DNA of 16,285 nucleotides from a bacterium (lineage in GTDB: Bacteria; Ratteibacteria; UBA8468; B48-G9; JAFGKM01): positions 1 through 16,285 of the forward strand of contig JAGHCG010000253.1 of the NCBI GenBank assembly GCA_021160565.1, written 5' to 3'. The first letter of the stretch is position 1, and each line of letters opens with the position of its first letter. Shown in pieces: positions 2,209 to 8,696 of the stretch. The notes beneath the pieces were generated by a model. The model made no database searches, was not told where the DNA came from, and saw only the letters and a list, made by a program, of their open reading frames with translations. A program made the position numbers and the translations under genes.

Positions 2209-2215
2209 TCACCTC
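2209..2215 (-). promoter_or_regulatory. Ribosome binding site of the zinc-ribbon gene
   Basis: On the minus strand the bases read GAGGTGA, 6 bases before the ATG at 2202. They overlap the TGA stop of the upstream DUF3786-like gene. This fixes the start of the small gene and suggests translational coupling. Confidence 0.7.
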
Positions 2216-2786
2216 ATTTTATCAATTTTTCAACAATTTCCTCGCACATAATTACAATATCTTCAATATTAAAAATTTTTTCTGTGATTGAACTGAAAAG
2301 AACTTTGGCATCAGAAGGGAATTCTTCGTCTTCGGGGTAGAAATTAATAATGACATGGATTTCAGGAAAGATATGAAATTTTACAGAATATTTTTCCATA
2401 GGTGTGGGAGTTGCTTGAAGAGAAAGGGCTTTTTCCATGAATTTCTCAGGCGAATTTGAAAATTTCTGAATGAGAGGATTATGAACTCTTGAAAAAATTG
2501 AAGGGAAATATATATTCCCTGTCTTGATTTCTTTAAAAGAAATAAAACTGGTATCGTAATTTTCTTCTGGAATGGGAGAGGAAAGATAATGAAGTATCAA
2601 AATTTTTTCTCTATCATTTAATTCATCAGCATTTATAAATTCAACTTCTGGGAGTTTAATCAGATAGTTTTTTCCAAAATAGAAAGTTTTTAAGACTTTC
2701 TGAACCGGATAAAGAAATCTTATTTTTTCTCTGGCAACTTTAAACGCTTCAATATAACCTTTTTCCATTTTTACAGGTTTAACCAT
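2214..2786 (-). CDS. DUF3786-like protein
   Basis: This protein of 190 residues has no signal peptide or membrane helix, so it is probably cytoplasmic. The C-terminal third (HVIINFYPEDEEFPSDAKVL, then FSSITEKIF and IEDIVIMCEEIVEKL) resembles the end of DUF3786 proteins as I remember them, where an FP-[AS]-D/E stretch leads to a predicted strand and an I-x-D-I-[AV] helix start. Some members of that family carry an added Fe-S domain; this one does not. The biochemical function is unknown. It overlaps the end of the fusion gene upstream by 16 bases and is followed directly by the zinc-ribbon gene, so it is very probably co-transcribed with AcsE-type functions. Neither ATG 2786 nor the alternative ATG 2768 has a convincing Shine-Dalgarno sequence, so the start is uncertain by six residues. 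The family call rests on recalled motif shape, not on a search. Confidence 0.6.
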   Translation of the reverse strand: MVKPVKMEKGYIEAFKVAREKIRFLYPVQKVLKTFYFGKNYLIKLPEVEFINADELNDREKILILHYLSSPIPEENYDTSFISFKEIKTGNIYFPSIFSRVHNPLIQKFSNSPEKFMEKALSLQATPTPMEKYSVKFHIFPEIHVIINFYPEDEEFPSDAKVLFSSITEKIFNIEDIVIMCEEIVEKLIK

Positions 2787-4858
2787 GAATCAGAGTATAT
2801 AGTATCTCCCTTTAAAACCTTTACTGTCTTTACATATTTTATCTCATCTTCATTCAATGAAGAAATATCTATTTCTTCTTCAAGTGCTTTCCAGATTAAC
2901 TCCTTTATTTTTTTATTTTCTCCTTTTGCAAAATTTATAAGTTCCGTATCAAAAGCATCAACTATTGCACTGTCCATTCCATATTTTTCCAGCATTATGA
3001 GGTATGTTCTGTTTAGGAGAGGTCTCAGATTTTCAGGAGCACCATTTGAGACATTTGAAAGACCACATGTGGAGTTGAAGTCAGGAAAAAGGTCTTTAAA
3101 CATTTTCATAAATTCAAGAGGAGAGACCACCTGTTCCTGCTGAAATCTTACAGGTAAAACGATGGGGTCAAAATATACTTTTGAATGTTCTATTCCATAT
3201 TCATCAATTTTTGCAACAAATTCTGCAGCAAGTGCTCCTCTTTCGTTTTCGTCTCTTGGCATTCCTTCTTTTCCAACAAGTAGAGCAATGAGTTTGCATT
3301 TAAACTGAGTTGCAAGAGGAAGAAGTTGGTTCATTCTTTCTTCTGTTGCCTGTATGGAATTTATTATTGCTTTATCGCCTTCCATTTCCAGACCAATTTT
3401 CATTGCTTCTACATTTGTTGTATCAAGGGAAAGGGGCAAGTTTGAAACCTCTCTTATTGTATTTATTATCCACTCCATAAGTTGAGGACCATCTTTTCTT
3501 GCAGGACCAATGTTTACATCAAGATAGTCAACTCCATTTTTTTCACTTTCAATTGCCATTTTAACAACTTCTTTTGCTTTTTCTAAAGCATTTTCTTCTG
3601 TAAATTCAACATGTATAGCACCTGGAATTTTTGCTTTATCAGATGTTGTTATTATTTGAGTGTGATAACACGAGGCGACTACTGGAAGGGATTGCATAAT
3701 ACACTGAATATCAACAGCCATCACTTCTATTGCTCCTGTGGTGATTGCAAGTTCCTGATTTAAAAAGTTTCCAAGAAGGGGTATTCCATGTCTCATAAGA
3801 ATTTCATTTGCAGTGCAGCAAATTCCTGCTATATTTATTCCTTTTGCTCCTTTCTCTTTAGCAAGTTTTATCATTTCAGGGTCTTCTGCTGCCACAACTA
3901 TCATTTCGGAAAGAAGTGGTTCATGTCCATGAACAATTATATTTACATAATCTTCTTTTAGAACTCCAAAATCCACCTCTCCAACTACAGGCTCTGGAGT
4001 TCCAAATAGAATGTCCTGCAACTCTGTGGCTATCATTGAACCACATTTTAAAGGTTTATCAGGTTTCCCTGGAAAAAATTTTTTATCAGTTGACCTTTTT
4101 CCATCTTTTACCTCCATTTTCTTAAGAATTCCCTCAAACTCCTGTAAGATTTCAGGTACTTTTTCCCATGGTGGAATTCCTTCAATTTCCGCCTCTTTTA
4201 ATTTCTCATAATAGGGTATAAAGCCAAGAATATTGAAATTTTTCAATTTTTCTTCAAGAAACGATTTTTCTTTTTCATTAGATATTTTATTTCCAATAAC
4301 TCCTATATTTCTGATGTTTAAATTCTTTGAAAGTTTTTCTGTTCTATATGCTGTATCTACACTTTTCCCGCTTGGTTCACACATCACTATAAGCCAGTCA
4401 ATTCCTTCTGCTGTTCCTCTACCAAGATGTTCAATTCCCGCTTCCATATCAAGGATAACAATGTCCTGTCTCTGTAAAATTAAGTGTCTGAGAAGCGCTT
4501 TTAAAAAAGCATTTTCAGGACAGGTGCATCCAAGTCCTCCACCTCTTACTGTTCCCATTATTCCCAGAAGAATATTTCCTTTCTTTTTGAAAAACCTTTC
4601 AGGTATATCGTCTACTTTTGGATTGAGTTTGAAAATAATGGAAGGTTTTCCAGGTTCTGCTCCTGTTCTTTCTTTTATAATCTCTCTCAATTCCACCAGA
4701 GGGGTTATTTCTCCTTCTATTCCAAAAGTGGCTTGAAGATTAGCATCAGGGTCTGCATCAATCAAAAAAACTCTTTTCTTTTTTTCAAAAATTATTGCTA
4801 AGACAGAGGCAGCCGTTGTTTTCCCTGTTCCCCCCTTCCCACTTATAGCAATTTTCAT
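2771..4858 (-). CDS. Three-part fusion: CooC-type Ni-insertion ATPase + middle domain of Ni-CO dehydrogenase + AcsE-like methyltetrahydrofolate methyltransferase
   Basis: Residues 1-250 are a complete CooC-like MinD/ParA NTPase: deviant Walker A GKGGTGKTT at 7-15, DADPDAN at 34-40, the CxC metal site GCTCP (Cys111, Cys113) and LDMEAGIEHLGRGT at 136-149. CooC proteins use ATP to help insert nickel into the CODH C-cluster. Residues about 272-437 match only the central domain of CooS/AcsA: GSMIATELQDILFGTPEP, VNIIVHGHEPLLSEM (His312), GICCTANEILMRHGIP (Cys347/348) and DIQCIM (Cys386). They hold the likely counterparts of three of the six C-cluster ligands. The CODH N-terminal B/D-cluster domain and the C-terminal third are absent, so CO oxidation is not expected. 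Residues about 438-695 match AcsE with its pterin/active-site motifs (LDVNIGPA, LSLDTTN, AIINS, YFDPIVLP, GLSNVS), but the first barrel strand (GERIN region) is missing. The start is the ATG that begins MKIAISG; the 13 codons upstream contain the promoter. It could be a true fusion, a deletion product or an assembly chimera. Confidence 0.75.
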   Translation of the reverse strand: MKIAISGKGGTGKTTAASVLAIIFEKKKRVFLIDADPDANLQATFGIEGEITPLVELREIIKERTGAEPGKPSIIFKLNPKVDDIPERFFKKKGNILLGIMGTVRGGGLGCTCPENAFLKALLRHLILQRQDIVILDMEAGIEHLGRGTAEGIDWLIVMCEPSGKSVDTAYRTEKLSKNLNIRNIGVIGNKISNEKEKSFLEEKLKNFNILGFIPYYEKLKEAEIEGIPPWEKVPEILQEFEGILKKMEVKDGKRSTDKKFFPGKPDKPLKCGSMIATELQDILFGTPEPVVGEVDFGVLKEDYVNIIVHGHEPLLSEMIVVAAEDPEMIKLAKEKGAKGINIAGICCTANEILMRHGIPLLGNFLNQELAITTGAIEVMAVDIQCIMQSLPVVASCYHTQIITTSDKAKIPGAIHVEFTEENALEKAKEVVKMAIESEKNGVDYLDVNIGPARKDGPQLMEWIINTIREVSNLPLSLDTTNVEAMKIGLEMEGDKAIINSIQATEERMNQLLPLATQFKCKLIALLVGKEGMPRDENERGALAAEFVAKIDEYGIEHSKVYFDPIVLPVRFQQEQVVSPLEFMKMFKDLFPDFNSTCGLSNVSNGAPENLRPLLNRTYLIMLEKYGMDSAIVDAFDTELINFAKGENKKIKELIWKALEEEIDISSLNEDEIKYVKTVKVLKGDTIYSDSWLNL

Positions 4859-4867
4859 GAGAAAAAT

Positions 4868-4897
4868 ATTATAGAATAGATTTTTCAAAAAAGTCAA
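4868..4897 (-). promoter_or_regulatory. Predicted sigma-70-type promoter for the fusion gene, apparently leaderless
   Basis: Reading the minus strand, TTGACT (4897-4892) and a perfect TATAAT (4873-4868) are separated by 18 bases. Only 9 bases lie between the -10 box and the ATG at 4858, so initiation 6-9 bases downstream of the -10 box would fall at or next to the start codon. No Shine-Dalgarno sequence is present before this ATG. The hexamers are seen directly; the leaderless reading is inference. Confidence 0.6.
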
Positions 4898-4991: not shown

Positions 4992-6062
4992 ATGGAAAAG
5001 AAAATTTTTATTGCTGCTACAAGACAAAATGATGGGAAGACAGTTATAAGTCTTGGCCTTCTCCTTGCATTAAAAAAATATGTAAAGAATGTGGGATTTA
5101 TAAAACCACTCGGACAGAAATATCTTCTTGTTGATGGAGCAAAAGTTGATAAAGATGCGGTTCTGGTAAAAAAGGTTTGTGGATTTAAAGAAGATTTGAA
5201 GGATATGAATCCTATAGCTGTGGAAGAGGGTTTTACAAGAAAATATTTAGATAATCCAGACCCTTCACAGTTGAGAAAAAAAATTAAGAGAAGTTACGAA
5301 AAAGTTGCTAAAGGGAAAGATATTATGGTGATAGAGGGAACAGGTCATGCAGGAGTTGGTTCTATTTTTGATTTAAATAATGCAGAAGTGGCAAGAATTC
5401 TGGATTCTCCTGTAATAATTATTTCAATAGGGGGGATTGGAAAACCATTTGATGAAATTTCACTTAACATTTCATTATTCAGGGAGAAGAAAGTTGAAGT
5501 TAAAGGAGTTATAATAAACAAGGTAATTCCTGAAAAAAAGCAGTTTGTTTCAAAATATCTCAGAAAAGGGTTTGATAGAGTTGGGATAAAATTACTTGGG
5601 GTAATTCCGTTTGTTCCTCTTCTCACAGAACCAGATTTGGGTCAGATATGTGAGGCTGTGAATGGAAAAATAATATGTGGATTTGATAAGATTCATCAAA
5701 AAATAAAAAATGTAATAGTGGGAGCAATGACACCAAGACATGCACTTGATTATTTTAAGCCAAATTCTTTAATTGTAACACCAGGAGATAGAGAAGATAT
5801 AATTCTGGCTGGAATTACATGTCATTCTGGAAAGGATGTTAAGGGATTTGTATTAACTGGTGGTCTATATCCTCATAAAACAATTCTTTCTCTTATAAAA
5901 AAGTTTGACGTTCCCACCATAATTGCGCCAAAGGGAACTTATGAAACTGCTTCTGCAATTCATGAACTTGTGGTGAAACTTACAGAGAATGATTGTGATA
6001 AGATAGAAATGGCAGGAAAACTTGTTGAAGAAAATATAGATATTGAAGAAATTTTAAAGTGA
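4992..6062 (+). CDS. BioD-like P-loop NTPase with DRTGG-type C-terminal domain
   Basis: This is a 356-residue cytoplasmic protein. Residues 1-210 resemble the dethiobiotin-synthetase-like AAA_26 fold: a variant P-loop ATRQNDGKT at 9-17, FIKPLGQ at about 37-43, and the Walker-B-region motif VIEGTGHAGVGS at about 113-124. Residues about 215-335 resemble the DRTGG domain (MTPRHALDYF, then IVTPGDREDIILAG and FVLTGG), although the DRTGG signature itself is not kept. The same two-domain arrangement forms the N-terminal regulatory part of long phosphotransacetylases such as E. coli Pta, but the catalytic PTA domain is absent. Its reaction and ligand are unknown; a nucleotide-sensing role beside corrinoid/acetyl-CoA genes is inference. 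It is the first gene of the rightward operon, and its TGA stop overlaps the GTG start of the next gene (GTGA). Confidence 0.75.
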   Translation: MEKKIFIAATRQNDGKTVISLGLLLALKKYVKNVGFIKPLGQKYLLVDGAKVDKDAVLVKKVCGFKEDLKDMNPIAVEEGFTRKYLDNPDPSQLRKKIKRSYEKVAKGKDIMVIEGTGHAGVGSIFDLNNAEVARILDSPVIIISIGGIGKPFDEISLNISLFREKKVEVKGVIINKVIPEKKQFVSKYLRKGFDRVGIKLLGVIPFVPLLTEPDLGQICEAVNGKIICGFDKIHQKIKNVIVGAMTPRHALDYFKPNSLIVTPGDREDIILAGITCHSGKDVKGFVLTGGLYPHKTILSLIKKFDVPTIIAPKGTYETASAIHELVVKLTENDCDKIEMAGKLVEENIDIEEILK

Positions 6063-7963
6063 AAGAGTATGCTATAATCACTTTTAAGCCAATCAATAAG
6101 AAAGTGGTGGTGAGAAAAGGGACAGACCTTCTTACAGCTATGGTGAAGGGAAATATTTTTATAACTTCCAGTTGTGAAGGAAAAGGTGTTTGTGGAAGAT
6201 GCAGAGTAAAAATATTAAAGGGTGAGTTTAAAACAGAACCGACAGGAAAAATTTCTGAAAATGATAGAAAAAACAATATTTTTCTGGCCTGTAGAACAAT
6301 AATTCTTGGCAATATAGAAGTTGAAATTTTGCCTGAGACACTCCTTACCGAAAAGGAAATAAAAGAAAAAAGATTATTTGCAAGAGGAGAAGAATTTCAT
6401 CTTGCAGAAGTTCCCCTAAAAGAAATTTATCCTTTTTCTCCTTTATCACAGAAGTATTTTCTTCGTCTATCTCTGCCATCTCTGGAAGATAATGTGAGTG
6501 ATTTTGAAAGAATATGCAGGGAATTGAAAAAATATAAAGGAGAAAAATTTGAATGTGAAACAGATTTACCTACTTTAAGAAGATTACCAGCACTTCTGAG
6601 AGGAAGTAATTGGGAAATTACTACCACTGTTGTTGAAAAACATAACAGGAAAGAAATTATTATTGTGGAGCCAAGAGATAATTCAAGGAGAAATTATGGA
6701 GTGGCTGTTGATGTCGGGACAACCACAATTGCTGCCAGTTTGATAGACCTGAGGAATGGAGAAAATTTAAAAACAGAAATTTCTTTCAATAAACAGAGCA
6801 GTTATGGAGAAGATATAATTTCAAGAATAATTTATGCTGAGAAAGGTGAAGGATTGGAAACTTTACACCATTTAGTTTGTGAAACTATTAATGAACTCAT
6901 TCAAAATCTTTCTGAAAATTGTTCTATAAATTTAAATGATATAACCTGTATTGTGTGTTCAGGAAATATGACAATGACACATCTTTTGTTGAAAATAAAT
7001 CCTTCCTTTTTGAGAAAAGAGCCGTAAGTTCCTGTTTCAAACTTCTTCCCAAGAATTAAAGCGGCTGAAGTGGGTATAAGAATTAATCCAGCAGGGATAA
7101 TGGAAGTTGTTGGTGGGGCTTATCCTTACGTAGGTGGGGATATTACGTCAGGGCTTTTAATTTCAAGAATTTATGAAAGGGAGGAGTTGAGTTTACTTAT
7201 AGATATAGGGACAAATGGTGAGATTGTTCTGGGAAATAAAGAGTGGATGGTTTGCTGTTCTGCTTCTGCTGGTCCTGCTTTTGAAGGAAGTGGAGTTAAA
7301 CATGGAATGAGAGCAGTTGCAGGTGGTATTCAGGGAGTTTGGATAAATGGAGAAAAAGTTAAGGTGGAGACAATTGATAATCAAATTCCTCTCGGGATTT
7401 GTGGTTCAGGGTATATTGATATAATTTCAGAACTTTATAAAAATGGAATTACAGATAGAAGCGGTGTTATAGTGGGTGAAAATAAAAGAGTGAGAGAAGG
7501 AGAGGAGGGTAAAGAATTTATAGTTGTTCCAAAAGAGGAAAGTGGGACAGGAGAAGATATTGTAATTACTCAGGTGGATATTGAAAATCTGATAAGAGCA
7601 AAAGCAGCAATATTTGCAGCTCTTTCCATCCTAATTAAAAAATCAGGGGTTGAGTGGGAAGATATTTCAAAAGTTTATGTAGCAGGTGGATTTGGAACAT
7701 ATCTCAATATTAAAAAAGCAATATCAATAGGTCTTCTGCCAGATTTTCCCGTTGAAAAATTTGAATTTCTGGATAATGCTTCACTTCTTGGATGTCAGGC
7801 ATATCTTTTAAGTGAGAAAGCCAGAGATATAACAAAAAAAATAGTTTCAATGTTAACTTATATTGAACTTTCAACTGAACCTGAATATATGGAAGAATAT
7901 TTAAAAGCACTATTTCTTCCACATACAGACCTCAATTTATTTCCATCTTTAAAAAATGATTAA
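6059..7963 (+). pseudogene. acsV: RACo-type reductive activator of corrinoid protein (ASKHA ATPase with [2Fe-2S] domain), interrupted by an in-frame TAA at 7025-7027
   Basis: The intact family member uses a [2Fe-2S] domain and ATP hydrolysis to re-reduce cob(II)alamin in corrinoid iron-sulfur protein. Read through, the frame is 634 codons, about the family length. Cys39, Cys45, Cys48 and Cys78 form the plant-type ferredoxin site. The ASKHA domain begins with VDVGTTTIA (Asp218) and continues after the stop with YVGGDITSG, LLIDIGTNGEIVLGN, CSASAGPAFEGSG and YVAGGFGTYLNI. Codon 323 is TAA, between RKEP and VPVSNFFPR, at a position I recall as tyrosine in homologues, so a single base change from TAT/TAC explains it. 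Both halves (6059-7027 and 7028-7963) are in the same frame, so this is a nonsense change and not a frameshift. A downstream product would have to restart at GTG 7070, which lacks a good ribosome site. Alternatives are sequencing error, true inactivation or read-through. The GTG start overlaps the previous stop; the 3' end overlaps cooC by 8 bases. The symbol is tentative. Confidence 0.8.
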
Positions 7964-8696
7964 AATAGGTATTGCTGGAAAGGGTGGAACCGGGAAAACA
8001 ACATTGAGTGCACTTATAATTCTTGTTCTTTTAAGGCATAACAAAAAACCTATTCTTGCAGTTGATGCAGACCCCAACAGTAATCTCAATGAAGTTCTTG
8101 GAATTCCAGCACCTGAAAGTCTTGTAGATATAGTTGATAGAGTAAGTAAAGAAAAAGACAGATTACCACCTGGAATGGAAAAAAGTAAATATCTTGAATT
8201 TCAGATAAGAGAAGCAATTCAGGAAGAGGAGGAGTTTGATTTACTTCTTATGGGGAAGACAGAAGGGCCAGGCTGCTACTGTTATGCCAATCATCTTTTG
8301 AGAGATTTTATGGAGAAACTTGAAAAAAATTATTCTTTTGTTGTAATGGATAATGAAGCAGGAATGGAGCACCTTTCAAGAAGAACTTCAAGAAATCTTG
8401 ATTTTCTTTTCATTACTTCTTTATGTGATAAAATTTCAATTAAAAGTGCAGAGAGGATTTACAGTATGGTGGAAAAGCTGGAATTGGAGATAAAAGAGAT
8501 TTACCTGGTTCTCAATGAGTTTGGTGGAAGAAAAATCTCTGAAAATTATAATCCTTTCCTTCCTCCTTTTTTTGTATTACCGTATGATGAAAAGATTGCA
8601 AAACTTACAGAAGAAGGGAAAGGAATTTTTTCTCTTTCCTCTGATTCAAAAGCATATAAAATTGTTGAAGAACACATTTTACCTCTCATAGAATAA
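7956..8696 (+). CDS. cooC: CooC/AcsF-type nickel-insertion ATPase
   Basis: This is a 246-residue MinD/ParA-family ATPase, the normal length for a stand-alone CooC. The deviant Walker A GKGGTGKTT is at 8-16, VDADPNSNL at about 36-44, the CxC metal/dimer site GPGCYCYAN has Cys107 and Cys109, and the switch region reads VVMDNEAGMEHLSRRTS. CooC and its relative AcsF dimerise with ATP and help deliver nickel to CO dehydrogenase or acetyl-CoA synthase. Which of the two is the client cannot be told from sequence. It is the last gene of the rightward operon; its ATG lies inside the last codons of the RACo gene. A second CooC forms the front of the divergent fusion gene, so the module has two paralogues. 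Transcription converges on rho immediately downstream. Confidence 0.88.
   Translation: MIKIGIAGKGGTGKTTLSALIILVLLRHNKKPILAVDADPNSNLNEVLGIPAPESLVDIVDRVSKEKDRLPPGMEKSKYLEFQIREAIQEEEEFDLLLMGKTEGPGCYCYANHLLRDFMEKLEKNYSFVVMDNEAGMEHLSRRTSRNLDFLFITSLCDKISIKSAERIYSMVEKLELEIKEIYLVLNEFGGRKISENYNPFLPPFFVLPYDEKIAKLTEEGKGIFSLSSDSKAYKIVEEHILPLIE

Follow-up and report, generated by a model that had tools for sequence, protein, structure and literature searches.

An uninterrupted CooC-CODH-AcsE reading frame in a Ratteibacteria genome is probably the remains of a collapsed acetyl-CoA synthase operon

The described proteins closest to the locus reported here are CooC, the accessory protein of carbon monoxide dehydrogenase/acetyl-CoA synthase (CODH/ACS; PDB 3kje, 3kjg, 3kjh and 3kji), the Ni-Fe CODH catalytic subunit CooS/AcsA (profile TIGR01702) and the methyltransferase (MeTr) AcsE (profile NF040758; PDB 2yci, 1f6y and 2e7f). 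In CODH/ACS operons of bacteria of the same order these are encoded by separate genes with acsD, acsB and acsC in between. We analyzed a stretch of 16,285 nucleotides (the window), the entire contig JAGHCG010000253.1 (C178) of the metagenome-assembled genome (MAG) GCA_021160565.1 (G000; 1.23 Mb, 265 contigs, 78.28% complete, 0 contamination), in which parts of all three proteins stand in one reading frame. Judged from the sequence, this frame is most probably what a recently collapsed acetyl-CoA synthase operon has left behind, open by chance.

The frame (2771..4858) lies on the minus strand and runs from an ATG at 4858 to a stop at 2771-2773, comprising 695 codons and no internal stop. The first possible start is a TTG at 4897, and the ATG is residue 14 of the resulting 708-codon frame, which is stop-free throughout, while the plus strand there contains many stops. 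A preliminary description of the window had reported a complete CooC, the central CODH domain and an AcsE without its first strand in a single uninterrupted frame, leaving the strand unstated, and this was confirmed by Pfam matches to CbiA (residues 16-242), Prismane (286-455, profile positions 175-339 of 513) and Pterin_bind (432-646) as well as by matches to sequences of solved structures, namely CooC 3kje (residues 14-263), CODH chains (only about 286-454) and the MeTr chains 2yci and 2e7f (445-658). Beyond these three, the frame holds a fourth piece, probably the head of a small conserved open reading frame (ORF).

The CooC segment (4088..4858, minus strand, lower limit approximate), a nickel-insertion ATPase of the NifH/MinD type, is complete: residues 14-263 of the frame align with 1-251 of the 254 residues in the CooC chain (E 6.9e-45), the P-loop GKGGTGKTT (20-28) and the CxC motif GCTC (123-126) are kept, and identity to the cooC products of G002, G013, G016, G017, G019 and G020 is 56-64%. 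Unlike known CooC proteins, it has lost its own stop and continues into foreign sequence, and a full client CODH was not found in the assembly. The CODH segment (3557..4042, minus strand) corresponds to the 628-residue CooS of G002 from residue 203 to about residue 364; residues 286-454 of the frame match the middle of TIGR01702 with 209.2 bits, covering 173 of 621 profile positions (214-386) and staying below the 478-bit cut-off for the full-length protein. It retains HGH (323-325), CCT (360-362) and QCIM (398-401), which we take to supply the first portion of the C-cluster ligands (His, Cys, Cys), whereas the remaining C-cluster cysteines and the N-terminal B and D clusters, which we assign to the missing portions of CODH, were not encountered in the frame, and the assembly matched the CooS query at residues 203-371 only. 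The AcsE segment (2771..3546, minus strand) extends from the first helix to the gene's own stop, with residues 440-658 matching profile positions 26-243 of 261 of NF040758 (176.3 bits, below the 370-bit cut-off). Its first strand and the motif [GA]EN[IL]N, present in AcsE of 9/9 relatives, are replaced by CODH sequence.

Loci of relatives were read in 11 stretches from 10 genomes. The cooC-to-acsE operon stands on a single contig in G016 (C56), G017 (C43), G019 (C10) and G020 (C25), and parts of it were read in G002, G006, G009, G011, G013 and G015. All four operons share genes, order and strand with the window, but have acsD, acsB and acsC, which the window lacks. In G016 the genes following cooC are the small ORF, acsD, ferredoxin, NuoE, NuoF, a NuoG-like gene, cooS, acsB, acsC, acsE and a DUF3786 gene, and a block with CooC2, RACo (corrinoid protein activator) and an AAA_26/DRTGG protein lies upstream, divergent from cooC. 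The flanks of G017 are as in G016, while G019 has the divergent AAA_26/DRTGG and RACo genes and the DUF3786 gene, with no CooC2 in the stretch read. The window resembles G016 at both ends, in the same orientations, with the divergent block at 4992-8696 and the acsE tail plus DUF3786 at 2214-3546. The preliminary description had named the remains of a collapsed cooC-cooS-acsE operon among its possibilities, and this is supported by the operon standing in that order in four relatives, with a divergent RACo gene and a DUF3786 gene after acsE in three of them (G016, G017 and G019). The window differs from its relatives in distance: cooC to CODH spans 51 bp, as against 1732-5316 bp in six genomes, and there is no gap between the CODH end and AcsE, as against 4493-4556 bp in the four operons. 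In genus g3, cooC/cooS and acsE are on separate contigs in all four genomes in which both were found (G002, G009, G013 and G015).

At the first join, the CooC sequence reads on where it would normally end, with RSTDKKFFPGKPDKPLKC leading over to the cooS sequence GSMIATEL. The linker (4043..4087, minus strand, upper limit approximate) ends in GKPDKPLKC, of which 8/9 residues agree with GKPDKPLKW in the small ORF of G002; the match has an E-value of 2.0 by itself, so that the identification as the probable head of this ORF rests on its position. A script recovered the small ORF in 5/6 relatives, always with its start no more than 11 bases from where cooC ends and always in a frame other than that of cooC; in the sixth, G019, a tblastn match covers it from residue 20 onward. 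Since the window carries both in one frame, the cooC stop must have been lost by a frame change, and this join is therefore not a clean deletion. On the cooS side, GGTTCAATG marks the break, where 1-3 bp are shared. At the second join, the Met codon preceding Ala-Ile-Glu is cooS-like and the following Ser codon acsE-like, and the 10 bp between them, GCAATTGAAA (3547..3556, minus strand), suit both genes, a shared stretch that we deduced by codon comparison from 6 cooS and 7 acsE genes rather than from an ancestral sequence.

Thus, the window would hold both ends of an operon for the carbonyl branch (CODH/acetyl-CoA synthase) from which the middle has disappeared, and we infer that the deletions took place in the organism. 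One deletion would have brought the beginning of the small ORF that follows cooC up against cooS at about codon 203, and another, between short repeats, would have joined cooS near codon 364 to acsE past its first strand; we take them tentatively in that order. A minor shift of frame where cooC ends would have removed the cooC stop, and the joins would have come to lie in one frame by chance, so that the debris reads as a 695-codon protein. The product probably has neither CODH nor methyltransferase activity, although its CooC part may still fold. Such a collapse is an ordinary kind of event, here well preserved.

The genes that a collapse would have removed were not found in the assembly, in agreement with this reading: the 628-residue CooS query matched at the fused locus only, and the rest of cooS, acsB, acsC and acsD were absent from the matches. 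AcsB was not found with a 734-residue query, a search that had no control, and PF03598 (acsB) gave 0 matches (control positive in 2/14). There were likewise 0 matches to PF03599, the AcsC/AcsD corrinoid acceptor, in this 78% complete assembly, where the control was positive in just 4/14, and 0 to PF01268 (FTHFS; control positive in 4/14). PF03598 was found in 12/35 genomes searched and in 4/16 of family f1, several of them incomplete; thus, loss appears to be common in this family. FTHFS was found in 29/35 genomes but not in G000, which may be due to incompleteness.

At near-invariant columns the window has changes in 2/26 (CooC), 1/45 (CODH) and 0/39 (AcsE), each relative counted having 0-1, in a test that is underpowered for CooC (13 homologues) and DUF3786 (12) and draws on 12 homologues for RACo and 4 for the AAA_26-DRTGG protein. 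The tip branches of the window (CooC 0.233, CODH 0.066, AcsE 0.171) are all shorter than those of G016, G017, G019 and G020 (0.297-0.396, 0.085-0.190 and 0.215-0.254, respectively) and longer than those of genus g3 (0.107-0.147, 0.025-0.054 and 0.023-0.082), which are short because close sisters are present. The trees are small with some weakly supported nodes, and in the CODH tree the window does not stand with genus g3. By these sequence comparisons the fused parts have no rate increase, in keeping with the earlier remark that any decay must be recent. Near-invariant columns long free of constraint would show far more change; therefore, the data point to a recent collapse or to a frame on which constraint still acts, and fit either.

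Several observations weigh against a collapse, or against parts of the evidence for it. If frames were random, all three joins would agree in about 1 case out of 27 (our own estimate), and 695 stop-free codons are compatible with selection. The small-ORF match comprises 9 residues. In G020 the operon is whole, yet neither RACo nor DUF3786 adjoins it. G019, with a whole operon, likewise has a shortened RACo (503 residues) and acsB in two frames, so the in-frame stop in the RACo gene of the window is weak evidence: breaks of this kind may stem from errors in the sequences of these MAGs. FTHFS was also not found in 5 others of the 35 genomes, and in a MAG of 265 contigs and 78% completeness the missing genes could be unassembled.

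The main rival, to which we give a lesser but appreciable chance, is that the operon is complete in the organism, or in a strain occurring with it, and that an assembly error or chimeric reads made the contig skip two stretches of it. The fragmentation and incompleteness of the MAG agree with this, the frame change near the first join and the stop in RACo could go back to errors in the sequence (G019 has similar breaks), and no second genome of genus g1, to which the window belongs, was present among the 61 mixed, 28 order and 35 phylum genomes searched (overlapping sets). An artefact would, however, take two separate errors within one 2-kb stretch, and in the searches of the assembly no further contig yielded the skipped genes. 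Moreover, assembler k-mers are usually longer than the ~10 bp and 1-3 bp shared at the joins, which are too short for joins of that kind.

A functional fusion, in which the CooC ATPase, a tethered CODH metal-site domain and an AcsE-like barrel would serve as metal carrier or maturation factor, is unlikely, and we see only a slim chance for it. This client-tethered protein had been proposed from the sequence, and three-domain homologues were sought in related genomes. Besides the window's own, 15 genomes of family f1, 27 of the order and 34 of the phylum were compared. The same fusion occurred in 1/35 phylum genomes, that of the window, and thus in 0/34 others; none besides the window was found in the 28 order genomes or, among the matches listed, in the 61 mixed genomes. 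Among 7787 frames of 124 loci, just two had more than one of the domains, both the window's own; of 175 relatives found in GTDB contigs, 80 were taken in. A conserved fusion family was therefore rejected, the architecture having appeared in no second species among these. Furthermore, the CODH part is without the cluster ligands that come later in the protein and without those clusters that lie N-terminally, its full CODH client was not found, and neither were genes for a PF03599 corrinoid protein in the assembly; the AcsE part is incomplete, without [GA]EN[IL]N. Whether the AcsE barrel closes without its first strand had been raised as a modelling question: the model did show a barrel fold, but the stand-in first strand was weak, with block means of the predicted local distance difference test (pLDDT) of 39-54 and 0 alignment rows covering that part of the model. 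Slimmer still is the chance that the debris has been retained after pathway loss as a nickel or iron-sulfur carrier (CooC with the attached CODH metal-site domain) and kept in frame by selection. Least credible is that CooC is still made on its own and serves a different nickel enzyme, with the remaining frame as debris: the segment is complete and of ordinary divergence, but its stop is gone, the assembly yielded no CooS except for the fragment, and a second uninterrupted CooC-like gene stands at 7956-8696.

Around the remains of the operon, the neighbouring genes are as follows. The DUF3786 protein (2214..2786, minus strand), identified by Pfam and locus reading, directly follows acsE in 7/9 relatives' loci with acsE; this arrangement was seen in L104, L105, L106, L108, L109, L110 and L112. 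On the plus strand, the AAA_26-DRTGG protein (4992..6062; domain matches) is the divergent neighbour as in G016, G017 and G019. It resembles the N-terminal part of phosphate acetyltransferase without the catalytic part, and it adjoins RACo in the window and four relatives (L104:3158-4273, L105:2424-3524, L106:13336-14436 and L109:5680-6837). The RACo gene (6059..7963, plus strand; Pfam and pattern scan) has an in-frame TAA at 7025-7027, where Tyr stands in all six displayed rows from four genomes (G002, G015, G016 and G017); 12 loci were scanned, six of which gave no row. With 4/94 changed near-invariant columns, within the range of its relatives (2/92 to 11/99), RACo has no decay beyond this stop. 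The breaks in G019, with RACo at L105:916-2427 (minus strand) and acsB at L105:9242-11446 (plus strand) split into 567 and 142 residues, are either sequence errors or early decay. The second CooC-like ATPase (7956..8696, plus strand; Pfam and locus reading) is uninterrupted, and C114 of the same assembly carries another RACo-like gene, which is shorter. RACo with an adjoining CooC-like gene was also found in G014:C131, G018:C101 and G027:C24, genomes in which neither acsB nor a close cooC, cooS or acsE was found (G014 and G027 being just 54% and 62% complete). Conversely, acsE was found without acsB or a close cooS/cooC in G006:C81, G011:C74 and G022:C25, which reflects either more partial losses or contig gaps.

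The small ORF encodes 53-58 residues in the five relatives measured, with the pattern GKP..W..KL..RE...YL...ERYW(F/Y)...GSEKRK, and in CODH/ACS operons its place is immediately downstream of cooC or ahead of cooS. It was found in 23 loci, some of them from one genome counted twice, and in 19/40 of the loci with both CODH and AcsE matches. The loci that have it include L107:12839-13006 (minus strand), L104:5126-5296, L103:5062-5229, L025-L029, L032, L033, L036-L042 and L048. The L037 copy has an internal stop, and the G002 copy had no Pfam match at E 1.

If the joins are real, the window captures the loss of the Wood-Ljungdahl carbonyl branch in progress and still shows where both breaks lie, in a family in which acsB was not found in 12/16 genomes, several of them incomplete. 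It also cautions that what looks like a striking multi-domain protein in a MAG can be the debris of an operon. The small ORF between cooC and acsD, to which the breakpoint drew attention, may hold more lasting interest than the fusion itself.
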